Shown here in pieces: positions 3,219-43,900 of a stretch of DNA of 64,000 nucleotides. Both the position numbers and the translations under genes were made by a program. The notes under the pieces are model-generated. The model was not told the DNA's origin. It saw only the letters and a program-made list of their open reading frames with translations, and did no database searches. The stretch spans positions 1,892,501 through 1,956,500 of the forward strand of contig OU696574.1 of the NCBI GenBank assembly GCA_916048095.2. Direction: 5' to 3'. This DNA comes from Sacculina carcini. Taxonomy: Eukaryota > Arthropoda > Thecostraca > Sacculinidae. The first letter of the stretch is position 1. Each line of letters begins with the position of its first letter.

Positions 3219-6200
3219 ATGTCTGAACAGGAGTCAGAAACCGCCAGTGGTGGAGAAAATAGCGGTGTGCCTGAAATCGAGCTGATAATCAAGGTTTGTA
3301 GCATAACGGTATGACCTCATTTTGAGCTATGGTGTAAGCTAGTTTCGTAGTGAACTTAAATTCGGCTATGAGTCGTTTGTTTTCTGAACGGTTGACCGCT
3401 GTTTCGTCATTCGTGTTAGTAACTCTGTTCGCGAGTTAATGCGTCTGGGAGGAGCGATCCGCACCGCTTTTTAATACGAGCGTAGAATAACTGTTAGAGG
3501 CGGCTTTAAATGAACATCGCGTGGGGCTTATCTCAAACGACTACATAGCGTTATCTCGCTTGATTACTCGCTATGGACGCATCCAGCTCTACAACTAATG
3601 GTAGATAGTGTGAGCGTCCAATGTGCGTGTGTAGATGTGAGGTGTGTTCGTGTACGTGTGTGTGTGTGTGCGGCAGGCGTCGACGATTGATGGACGTCGC
3701 AAAGGAGCGTGTCTGTTCTGCCAGGAGTACTTCATGGATCTGTACCTGCTGGCTGAGTTGAAGACAATCGCTCTCAAAGTAACCACCGTCGACATGCTCA
3801 AGCCGCCGCCCGACTTCAGGTCAGTTGTCAATCACACTGTACATGGGTACAGTTGTCATTCACACCGTGTGTTTTTGTGCGTGTTGTGTTGAGTTGTCGT
3901 GAGTCTGTTTTATCATGTTTTTCGCTGGTGACCCCTTGAACTTTTACTCATGGCGTTACGACTGATAATCGATAATTAATTGACAGTTGATAATTGGGCA
4001 GTATATGTATTATACAGGATACAGGATATTGTCGACTCATCAGCACCACTAATGTTTGTTGTGTAATGAATCACCCATCACTATTGTGTAGTGAGTCATC
4101 CATCACTATTATGAATCACCTCTCCCACGAATATTGTAAACTCGCGTCCAAGTGTACAATGTGCATGCGTGTGTGTGTGTGTGTGTGTACACGATATTTG
4201 AGTACACGATATGCCTTTCGAAGAATTCCAAGTTTCTGAGAAGCGGAAACTACAAGACGACGAACCTGTTTCTCAAAAGTCAGCCTTGAATCGAATCGAA
4301 CTCCAAGGACATCGACTGCGTTACATTCTTCCACTGCGCAGCCATTAACCAACAAAGGATCGAGCGATGGATTCAATGTGCGAGACCGAGAAACACACAA
4401 AAACTTCGACTTTTTTTAGTTAAGCTTCATATTCCAAGTGTCACACCATATGGATATTCTGCGCAGGTCTTCGTTCAGTGACCAACTCACATTGGGTCGC
4501 CGCTCTGGAGTGTCAACGGTAGCCACCATAGTTACATCATCCGCGTAAGCAAAAACAGGATGCGAAGCTAGGCTGAGCAGATCTGATGTGTAGACATTGA
4601 ACAAGAGAGGACCCAATACACTCCCTTGGGGAACACCCGAGTGAACATCATGCCATTCACTGTGCCTACCATCAACACATACTCTGTGCTTGCGACCTTG
4701 AAGGAATTGGGTCATAACTGATAGGACTCTTCCTCCGACCATGAGAGACTTTAGCTTTCGGATCAGGCCATCGTGATTGACTCTATCGAACGCGGCTGAA
4801 AAGTCTAGCTGGACTATCACAGCTTCCTGTCCTCGATCTAGGGCCTGTTGCACAATATGAGTGATGGAGAGCAAGGCGTCCGTGGTGCCGAGATTTTTGC
4901 GATATGCGAATTGATTAGGCGGCAGCAAACTGCGATTTTCAAGGTATTGAGCGAGACGACGACAAACCACATGTTCGAAAACCTTGGATAGCAGAGGTGT
5001 TATTTGAAATAGGCCGGTATTGACTGGGATCGGATGACGAAGGACCTTTTGGAATTGGAGTGATATTGGCGATTCGGCAGCACGATGGAAAACTGCCGCG
5101 CCTAATTAGTCGTCTAAAAACGGCACTAAGTTTTGGAGCCAATGCTACAGCAGTCTTCTTCAGAAATAAGGAAAATATACCCAGAGGATCAGTGCCGCCA
5201 TTGGAGTCAAGAGATTCAAGCAGACTTTTCACTTCCTTAGATCTGAAAGCCACTCCCGTCAATGCAGGTTTATCATATACAGTGTCATCAGTAGATAAAG
5301 GACGACGTGAGAGTTTGCTATCGAAATGACGCATGAGCAAATCTGCTTTCTCAGTCGGACTTGACACCACCTTCCCCGTTGCAGAGAGGAGAGGCGGGAG
5401 AGTTGTTCGCACACCGTGAATGATGGACTTGAGAGTGGACCACCAGTTGTGAGGGTCAGACGTCGACGACAACAATTCTTTGGCAGAACTGTGTCTCTGC
5501 CGTTCGGCCTGCCGGTAAGTCGCCGCACAAGAAGCCCTGGCCGTCACATACTCATTCCAAGCTTCGGAGGTCCTGGACCTGGACCAATGATGGTAAGCTG
5601 CCTGTTTCATTTGACGGGCAGAATGGCAATCGGCATTGAACCAGGACTTATCATTGGAACGGAAGGAAAGTTTCTTCAATGACGATACAGGGTCGTCGCT
5701 ACTCAAAATCGGACCTAGACGAATGTTACGCACATCGTTCATTACATTGTCCCAGTTAACACGTGACTTCATGAACACCTCTTTTCTGATCGTATGCACG
5801 GGCACAGACTGCCGAAGATTGAGCTGAATGCTCAGAGCAGAGTGATCAGAAGATCCAAGTGGAGCGAGGATGGTCACTTTGACGACATCAGGTACATCAG
5901 TGAAAACCAGATCGAGACCGTTGCCGGATGATTGAGTCGGACTGGTAACCAACTGCTCACAACCGGAGATATTGGCAAAATCCAATGCAGCACGACCATA
6001 TGAATCAGTCGGGCTTCTAGAAAACCATTCGTTCTGATGTGCGTTGAAATCACCGGCAAAGACAAAGGCCGCTTTACGGTCGTTCTCCTGGATCACAGAC
6101 ATTGTACGAATGAAGCAATCATATATGGAATCGTCCGAGTCCGGGTTGCGGTAGTAGCCGAATATATGATAATTGGTCAACTTTGAACATACACGAATGG

Positions 6201-40900: not shown

Positions 40901-43900
40901 CGCGCATGAGACAGACCGACGACGAGATGAAGCGACGCACTCAGGAGAACAGACTGTTTATGCAGGCCAGTTATCTGTCTGTCTGTCTGTCTCACATACA
41001 CACACACACACACACACACACACACATATGTATCATGCTACTATAAACAGTACAATAATCAACTACTATTGAACAATAACAAGTGTTGAAAAATGTCTAC
41101 CAACATTGACGTATAAGATAAATTGAAGCGAATTGCTATTAATTGGTGTTTAATGAGAAAGTACGACGTAACAAAGTTGCATTATTATTGTGAGCCAACT
41201 TTTCCCCTCATTAGCTCACTTGTGTGTGTGTGTGTGTGTATGTTGTGTAGGCGAATGAGTTGAACAGTTTGTTGGACCAGCAGGAGCAGGCGATATGGGG
41301 CGGCGACGGTGCCGGTGGCAGTGCTGGCGGCGTTGGCGGTGGCGGCGGTGTTGCTGGACCTCAGAACAACAACGCTAAAAAACTGCCCGATACGTTCCCT
41401 TCGTACGGTGCTTTGGCAGCAGCCGCCGCCGCCGCAGGACCCCCGGCCGGGGCTCATCCGTGGGGCCATCCCCCGCCCCCTCATCAACTACCTCAAGCGG
41501 CATTCAACGCGCAGCCTGGTCAGTTGCATGTGGTCAATGTGTTGAGATTGGTGGTGTAGCATGTAACATGTGTTGGCATGCGGCTCATGTCTCATGCTTA
41601 TTGACCGCTGCTGTAATGCTGGGTTGGCTGTGTTTTCAGAAAATGCCAACGGTAATAATGCCAGTGTGGATCGTGCCGGCGTCATGGTGAGTACTCAACT
41701 CCTCACCAATTTCAACCGCACTCTCAATTATTGCTCTACTGTCACAATACGTCAATTGGACAAACACAACACGTCCCACTTGCAATAAGTAAATGAGCGA
41801 CTTGCATAAGCGTTGTGTTAGACTGGGTCAATGTTGTACATGCTCTTGAATAGCTGATATTTTCAAACAGCTTTATTGTAGAGCGTAAAATATGAACATC
41901 TCAAATGGCTTGGCTAAAGCGATCGCGACATTGACACACGAATATCGCGGGCTCTACACAAACACCTCGCATTTTGTGTGCTGTTTTGCCTCACGCGGAA
42001 ATAACGAACTGTGTTTATGAACCGGAAGTAAATTAGGATTGATTAGCACGCGACCAGTCATAGTTCATTGACCTTTTGTTTCTCTCAAGCAAGAGCCGAG
42101 GATGTTTGTGCACGTTCACTATTAATATTTGATTTTGTATTTGATGCGATCACACTCACGGAACACATGGCTCATGATGTGCCTGGAGTCACCGGATGAG
42201 ATGGCGCGCGTGAGATGAATGTTGTGCGTATGAACGTATGCATGAGAGTGGGGTACAAGCTTGAGTGATGTGTGTGCTCCACTCATCACTCAGTGCCTTA
42301 TTTCCGTGTCACATGCCATCGAAATATCTCTTTCTAACACATAAAGTTCAATTCATCTGTCAGTTCGATATTCTACCTGCTACGATCCTGGCATTGTGTT
42401 ATATGTATGAGACCAAGGATGCATTGTGGAAAGATGATATACTTGCGTGGTGATCGGTAATAAGTTGTCGATAAATGGCAAACAAACTGGATTTCACATA
42501 GAATATGTACATTTCTAAATGGTGTACGATCGTGCTAATCGGGTATTCCATAGGTGGGTCTATACGAATGTATTTTTACATTGCTACATGCATGTATGAC
42601 ATCAGAGTGATCGCATGCCGGTAGTATATACCTGCATTGAAGACGGGTAATCTAATATATTGATAGCAGGTCCACATGATAACTACACTCTCGTTACAAC
42701 GTTGCACACATCCCGCCTGCCAAACATATTCTATTTTACATCCACGCTGACGAATCCATCGCTTGACGAATAACGAGTATTTGTGTTCATACACTTCTCT
42801 GTTCGTCTTTCTTACTTGTCCGATATAATTGGATGCTGTGGATAGGGTGTCTTTTGTGGTGACTCGGTGGGTAATTCGATCATTACCGTTTCTATCGGCT
42901 GGGTGTTATATTGTGCTCGTGATCACGTGGTCACATTAGGCCTTCAGTGGTCACATTAGGCCAAAACATTGAACATCTATATGTAGATGTGAATATGAAT
43001 GTATATATATGTAGAACAGAATATGTAGATAATTGTTGCATATAAGTGCGAAGGAGTGCATGTGATTAGGCATGCTAACAAGTTGACTGAACAATGACAA
43101 ATCACCGATTCGTTGCAACACGTCGTGAATAATATGATTGTCAATTCTATTTCTACCAGGTGTTCGCGTAGAATACCGTGTTGCAATGTGACAGCGAACA
43201 AGCTGATAGTCTGTTCTGTGTGTGTGTGTGTGTGTGTGTGTGTGTGTGTGTGTGTGTGTGTGTGTTTGCCTCTGAATATTTTATCTTTGATACTTTTTGC
43301 TCGTTTATTTCAAGTGAGTTTTCCCATATTTCAAATGCGATCACGCCATCGTTCTCGAAGTGATCAATTAATGCGCTACCGTTCTGAATGTGGCTCATTG
43401 TTGCAGTCAATTTCTCTCTTGGACATTGCGCATTGTTGTGATAATCTGCGTGAAATTTACAGTGGTTCAGACACTATTCATTACCATCCGCTAGCCATTG
43501 TGAAAACTAGGCAAAGGCGATCTGGTTGCTTTTAATTCCACCTCGTCATTCACGGTATATCTAGTTCCGAAATGCATGTTTTTACCATTGTCAGTGTAAA
43601 TTGGTTAATCAACTTTGATAAAAATATGCATTGGTTAAGCGCTGGTTGGTTGGTTATATCGGTTATAATAGGTAATTAGCGGTGGAAGTTCTTCATCGTA
43701 ATATTTTCAAAGAATATCTGTAGCTTATACTTGGAGCTTGCATTCCTTACCGTATCCTGAGATGACCTGAACATTTTGCACTAATACAACAGGATTTCAT
43801 TGAATAGCATCAGTATCAGTGGTGATTAGGGCTGTCAAAAAAGTAACCTAAAAATCAGAAAAAAGTAACTTTTTTTTCGAGAAAAATTAATCTAAAAATA

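Follow-up and report, generated by a model that had tools for sequence, protein, structure and literature searches.

The 3' ends of many introns of Sacculina carcini carry GU repeats, almost always in the same orientation relative to the transcript. The pattern was seen in the introns of a window, here meaning a stretch of 64 kb on contig C4 of the genome (264.4 Mb, 43 contigs), and was found again at acceptors of Ras-family genes elsewhere. The GU pattern at acceptors is real, strong, and strand-specific, and it is present in genes spread across the genome. It is better explained by a U/G tract than as one half of an RNA bridge between the two intron ends. Animal introns usually end in a U/C run, the polypyrimidine tract, which belongs to the core signals of an intron. 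Here, a U/G tract probably stands in for the polypyrimidine tract at 3' splice sites and is read by UHM-type factors. This suggests that the splicing machinery of this species reads a different intron-end signal.

Six spliced genes of the window were rebuilt from the sequence: CLIC, Med22 (a small gene at 11.4–12.1 kb), eIF2 gamma, WTAP, importin alpha, and a gene for a DBHS protein. The final exon models of all six are translated with no internal stops, and all six products match the expected Pfam families (the DBHS protein was scanned to the end of exon 6). They contain 33 closed introns. An earlier note on this DNA counted 34; the 34th would start at the DBHS donor at 41687. All 33 introns end in AG. 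Thirty-two start with GT and one, DBHS intron 6 (40966), starts with GC. At acceptor position −3, C is seen 24 times, T nine times, and A or G never, which corresponds to YAG acceptors. Position +3 of animal donors is usually A or G. In the window introns it is often C (10/33), as in GTCAGT, and DBHS intron 6 starts with GCCAGT.

The rule for counting GT runs was strict: a run had to be perfect (GT/TG), at least 8 nucleotides (nt) long, and end no more than 60 nt from the intron end. By this rule, 15 of the 33 window introns (hereafter GU introns) have a GT run at the acceptor. An AC run is seen in the same place in none of the 33 (two-sided binomial, p = 6e-5), which bears out the statement of the earlier note that the repeat is always GU in the transcript on both strands. 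The same note listed 16 clear cases. Fifteen of them satisfy the rule, and importin alpha intron 5 is merely GU-rich. The distance from the nearest run to the end of the intron is 2–34 nt, with a median of 4, and the longest run per acceptor measures 9–28 nt. The + strand of the whole window contains 53 GT runs and 52 AC runs. Since the runs of the window are balanced, the bias at acceptors is not a composition effect.

The Pfam Ras family was used as a genome-wide sample, because here the strand and the exon are fixed independently of the flanks. There are 97 exon-level matches, and 66 of them start within the domain, at residue 14 or beyond. The 212-nt stretches at the upstream ends of 60 of them were used, and six were omitted. 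The last 60 nt contain a GT run in 34 of the 60 and an AC run in only one, while about two are expected by chance (p about 1e-34). Over 200 nt, the numbers are 38 and three. Grouped by gene, the matches form 33 clusters, spread over 20 contigs; 25 of these clusters include one or more GT acceptors and one includes an AC acceptor. Even if only the first acceptor by coordinate is taken from each cluster, 19 are GT and one is AC. In the 40 nt before the Ras matches, GT runs cover 24.5% of bases and AC runs 0%, against a background of 2.5% for both orientations together.

The background consists of 25 ten-kb stretches chosen regardless of genes (20 evenly spaced on contig C1 and five from other contigs; 250 kb). 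Its runs are balanced in orientation, with 185 GT and 181 AC. The probability that a GT run ends within a random 60-nt stretch is 0.033, corresponding to about one of 33 window introns. The enrichment over random stretches is 14-fold for the window introns and 17-fold for the Ras acceptors. Thirteen other repeat units were counted as well, and the GT-like (GTAT)n alone is raised at acceptors (4/60 in Ras and 1/33 in the window, versus 0.9% in the background). Neither (CT)n (0/33 in the window, 1/60 in Ras) nor (T)8 (1/33 and 0/60) is enriched there. The Ras acceptors thus support the proposal of the earlier note that the strand-consistent GU is a splicing-related signal. Common descent of the introns was considered as well. 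Only three matching pairs (46–83 nt, 76–87% identity) were found among 93 repeat-masked intron ends; the ends share little sequence apart from the repeat, and intron copies of the introner type are rejected.

The base composition is also changed. Over the 25 nt that precede the final three bases of the intron, the 15 GU introns of the window show G.44, U.44, A.07, and C.05. The other 18 introns show U.46, G.24, A.16, and C.14 in the same 25 nt, G still being above C. The longest pyrimidine run is 2.7 nt on average in the GU introns and 4.3 nt in the others. No canonical U/C tract precedes the AG in the 15 GU introns of the window. The loss of the polypyrimidine tract where GU is present, which the earlier note predicted, is therefore observed, with C at.05 and the shorter pyrimidine runs. 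UAG acceptors are more common in GU introns, seven of 15 against two of 18 (Fisher p = 0.047). The shift to U/G is clear for the GU introns and only suggestive for the remaining introns.

CA runs starting within 60 nt of the donor are seen in four of the 33 window introns (CLIC intron 5, eIF2 gamma introns 7 and 9, and DBHS intron 6), and GT runs in none (p = 0.125). The earlier note named these four and importin alpha intron 5, which is weak. No CA excess was found at 40 Ras donors, that is, exons with another Ras match downstream in the same gene (at least six further ones were omitted): their first 60 nt contain three GT and three AC runs, and over 185 nt there are nine GT and four AC runs. 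Because donors of the same family are balanced in orientation, strand labelling is not the cause of the acceptor bias. Among 59 donors predicted at random loci, runs of at least 8 nt within 80 nt are GT in three and AC in five, and runs of at least 10 nt are GT in none and AC in five. Genome-wide, 25 distinct sites have (CA)6 no more than 30 nt after AGGTAAGT, and 25 have (GT)6 there. A general CA enrichment at donors is rejected on the Ras donors and the AGGTAAGT sites. On this evidence, CA at donors is present in the window and is not a general feature. The observation of the earlier note is partly confirmed as a whole: its acceptor half is real, and its donor half is not general.

The donor runs bear on the fish-type AC/GT bridging introns, in which CA at the donor pairs with GU at the acceptor and replaces U2AF2. 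Such introns are known in zebrafish (PMC6093180, PMC9198270), and the earlier note suggested an equivalent here. In the predicted fold of DBHS intron 6, 18 of the 19 bases of its GU run pair with its first 60 nt; this intron is a good individual candidate for a bridge, but not the rule. The intron 9 of eIF2 gamma also carries both CA and GU tracts. Folds were predicted for the GU introns no longer than 800 nt (14 introns). In five of them, four or more bases of the GU run are paired with the 60-nt stretch at the intron start; however, when this stretch is shuffled, 6.1 introns do so on average, and five or more in 27 of 30 shuffles. The two tracts co-occur at chance level. In the window, donor CA is present in two of 15 GU introns and two of 18 others, and in a set of 62 introns of at least 140 nt, drawn from the 33 window introns and 40 Ras pairs, in four of 33 GU introns and three of 29 others (p = 1.0). 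Matched ends do not pair better than permuted ends in this set, either among all 62 introns (mean duplex energy −22.1 versus −21.1, P = 0.12) or among the GU introns (−24.2 versus −23.8, P = 0.35). Twelve of the 15 GU introns of the window contain no AC run of 8 nt anywhere, and the Ras donors and the equal counts after AGGTAAGT point the same way. AC/GT bridging is thus rejected as a general mechanism, and it is very improbable as the explanation of the acceptor pattern. The earlier interpretation is partly supported as a whole, for its splicing signal and not for its bridge.

Another explanation requires no role of the repeats themselves. Acceptors need U and few A, so AC would be selected against there, while the common GT microsatellites would be tolerated and expand by slippage. 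The genome is indeed rich in such microsatellites, with 2.5% of bases in perfect GT/AC runs of at least 8 nt (250 kb), and a human preprint (PMC13174678) reports a bias towards T-rich repeats that is strongest within 100 bp of affected exons. Filtering alone, however, cannot give a 14- to 17-fold rise of GT over the background. If a U/C tract were the starting point, (CT)n and (T)n should arise from it too, but neither is enriched, and the GU introns lack a pyrimidine tract. We consider this passive origin unlikely. The tracts could instead be regulatory sites for TDP-43 or a CELF-type protein that control exons, not a core tract. The genome has three matches to the TDP-43 N-terminal domain, and TDP-43 binds (GU)6 at about 70 pM (PMC12697283). 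Against this reading, the tracts here abut the AG, at a median distance of 4 nt, in the place of the core tract, and are found in ordinary housekeeping genes. In addition, human TDP-43 reportedly promotes skipping of CFTR exon 9, where its site lies at the 3' splice site. Altogether, regulatory sites of this kind are rather improbable as the explanation. Folding of the tracts into poly(UG) quadruplexes, which would mark the end of the intron or give it a shape, has hardly any chance of being the explanation. Runs of at least 12 repeats fold into such quadruplexes in vitro (PMC12697283), and a run of at least 24 nt is found within 200 nt in eight of the 60 Ras flanks. In the window, a tract of this length lies near the acceptor in just one of 15 GU introns, and most tracts are too short, so quadruplexes are rejected for most tracts.

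Candidate readers of a U/G tract are present in the genome. The U2AF large-subunit model matches two copies placed head to head on contig C26 (1032223–1036658), each matched within one open frame with no stops; one copy was read over its model-matched part and the second over RRM1-RRM2. The two are identical to each other at 132 of 213 aligned positions, and to human U2AF2 at 135 of 203 and 130 of 207. In RRM2, the residues corresponding to N268, N271, and N289 of human U2AF2 are P, T, and H in one copy and G, S, and H in the other. The residues of RRM1 that we take to contact RNA are largely kept. An orthologue of PUF60 has its RRM1-RRM2 at C31:185890-186460 (2.3e-80 to human PUF60). The human protein has a preference for UG-rich tracts and favours poly(GU) over poly(U) (PMC6093180). 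Of the three TDP-43 N-terminal-domain matches, two form a head-to-head pair (C26:5886003-5886991); the U2AF2 pair and this pair are thus both head to head and both on contig C26. U2 small nuclear RNA has 46 full-length matches, mostly in a tandem array (C20:6202438-6429946) with many copies about 1.2 kb apart.

The explanation we favour as probable is that the U/G tract replaces the polypyrimidine tract. In a large fraction of introns, U/G would have replaced U/C in the 3' splice-site tract, which takes the form of a (GU)n microsatellite at roughly half of the acceptors sampled. The GU tract would be a functional equivalent of the polypyrimidine tract and would be needed for splicing. Its orientation would be maintained since reading takes place on the transcript and not on the DNA; lengthening by replication slippage would not impair its function. 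The likeliest readers would be UHM-type factors, namely PUF60 and/or one of the two diverged U2AF2 paralogues with their RRM2 substitutions, and they would recruit the U2 small nuclear ribonucleoprotein as usual. A fuller version of this scenario, in which the alphabet of the core tract changed from U/C to U/G genome-wide, the tracts evolve as GU microsatellites, a re-specialised U2AF2 paralogue or PUF60 became the reader, and no AC partner is involved, is more tentative; we see it as a possibility short of a probability.

Several points weigh against the replacement of the polypyrimidine tract by a U/G tract. By the rule, a GU run is absent from roughly half of the acceptors (18/33 in the window, 26/60 in Ras). 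In 27 Ras flanks that lack GU, counted by a slightly different rule, G (.24) is hardly above C (.22). The bias is weaker for exons predicted by a gene finder at 25 random 10-kb loci, where 12 GT and five AC runs are found within 80 nt of 60 acceptors; these predictions include many transposon-like open reading frames, which dilute the bias. The splice sites of both the window and the Ras genes were set by coding continuity and homology, not by RNA. Across the genome, (GT)6G before CAGG is found 554 times and the mirrored pattern 46 times, but a CTGG control is likewise skewed (714 versus 53). Because CTGG shows a like asymmetry, the mirrored pattern is a bad control, and nothing follows from the (GT)6G counts. 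For comparison, (AC)6 before TGCAGG is found three times and its mirror once. As for the readers, N268, N271, and N289 of U2AF2 are presumably RNA contacts, and two of these three changed positions are, we assume, altered in Caenorhabditis elegans as well. PUF60 and U2AF2 are found in most animals, and for this reason their presence alone proves little.

If the U/G tract does replace the polypyrimidine tract, Sacculina carcini would offer a naturally occurring way to test the actual requirements of U2AF2 and PUF60, with GU repeats taking the place of the tract in roughly half of the introns sampled and no AC partner of the fish type. It would also tie microsatellite turnover directly to core splicing signals. 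PMC6093180 suggests testing whether PUF60 of zebrafish serves GT introns, and this suggestion would become directly testable.

The tracts of the window are listed in Table 1. The length of the CA tract in CLIC intron 5 may include an assembly error.

Table 1. GU tracts at acceptors and CA tracts at donors in the window (positions of the window; runs on the − strand are given as read in the transcript).
Feature	Position	Strand	Description
GU tract, CLIC intron 1 (3294-3676) acceptor	3656..3670	+	perfect GT run, 6 nt from end
GU tract, CLIC intron 4 (8792-8995) acceptor	8968..8992	+	two GT runs, nearer 3 nt from end
GU tract, eIF2 gamma intron 4 (14522-14813) acceptor	14776..14809	+	two GT runs, nearer 4 nt from end
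GU tract, eIF2 gamma intron 5 (14924-15207) acceptor	15143..15205	+	three GT runs, nearest 2 nt from end
GU tract, eIF2 gamma intron 6 (15367-15992) acceptor	15970..15978	+	GT run, 14 nt from end
GU tract, eIF2 gamma intron 8 (17568-18208) acceptor	18195..18205	+	GT run, 3 nt from end
GU tract, eIF2 gamma intron 9 (18379-20483) acceptor	20453..20464	+	GT run, 19 nt from end
GU tract, eIF2 gamma intron 10 (20657-20755) acceptor	20735..20749	+	GT run, 6 nt from end
GU tract, WTAP intron 4 (22550-22331) acceptor	22346..22383	-	GT runs of 28 and 9 nt, nearer 15 nt from end
GU tract, importin alpha intron 1 (36942-36822) acceptor	36826..36851	-	two GT runs, nearer 4 nt from end
GU tract, importin alpha intron 2 (36603-36411) acceptor	36414..36431	-	18-nt GT run, 3 nt from end
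GU tract, importin alpha intron 3 (35975-35854) acceptor	35856..35876	-	21-nt GT run, 2 nt from end
GU tract, DBHS intron 3 (39285-40069) acceptor	40052..40065	+	GT run, 4 nt from end
GU tract near acceptor, DBHS intron 4 (40201-40327)	40274..40293	+	GT run, 34 nt from end
GU tract, DBHS intron 6 (40966-41250, GC-AG) acceptor	41221..41239	+	GT run, 11 nt from end
CA tract, CLIC intron 5 (9136-9791) donor	9140..9703	+	564-nt perfect (CA)282 run, 4 nt into intron
CA run after donor, eIF2 gamma intron 7 (16223-17422)	16265..16273	+	first of many AC runs of at least 8 nt in intron
CA tract after donor, eIF2 gamma intron 9	18430..18482	+	53-nt AC run, 51 nt into intron
CA tract after donor, DBHS intron 6	40998..41026	+	29-nt AC run, 32 nt into intron; pairs with GU tract in predicted fold

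Two genes of the window are intronless among intron-rich neighbours: ATG101 (25625–26311) and a TTC21-type TPR gene of 1,406 codons (29641–33861). Likewise, neither the PUF60 region nor the matched part of either U2AF2 copy is interrupted. These intronless stretches hint that many genes have been retrocopied. A transposon-like stretch, apparently antisense, lies in CLIC intron 2 (about 4200–6700), where the gene finder gives weak exons. A gene for tRNA-Glu (CTC) is located at 11003–11074, between CLIC and Med22, and a minisatellite with several units containing TTGGTCAGT.TTGATGACAGTTTGTATGTG and internal GT runs is located at about 1165–1630. Four tandem copies of TTAGGG are found nowhere in the genome. 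Five copies of TTAGG give 20,354 overlapping matches genome-wide; many are contig-internal among the matches listed. Repeats of TTAGG in place of TTAGGG are what one would expect of an arthropod.

Among the closest known systems are the (AC)m-(GT)n bridging introns of zebrafish, reportedly described by Lin et al. in 2016 (Genome Res). As in Sacculina carcini, (GT)n is placed upstream of the 3' splice site in transcript orientation and in a sizeable share of introns. The introns of Sacculina carcini differ in having neither a matched (AC)n at the donor nor an excess of pairing between their ends. The share differs as well, being about half of the sampled acceptors here and roughly 10% of the introns in zebrafish, according to PMC6093180. 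The same paper describes UG segments read by PUF60 in human, which share with the tracts here the UG-rich sequence upstream of the 3' splice site, and an orthologue of PUF60 is present here. In human, the UG segment is upstream of the part bound by U2AF, whereas here UG abuts the AG and takes the place of the U/C tract. In Fritillaria, a duplicated U2AF goes with altered 3' splice sites (PMC13326754). Two diverged U2AF2 paralogues and an altered context of the 3' splice site are common to both. In Fritillaria, the terminal dinucleotides are changed, whereas in Sacculina carcini GT-AG is kept (with one GC-AG among the 33 introns).

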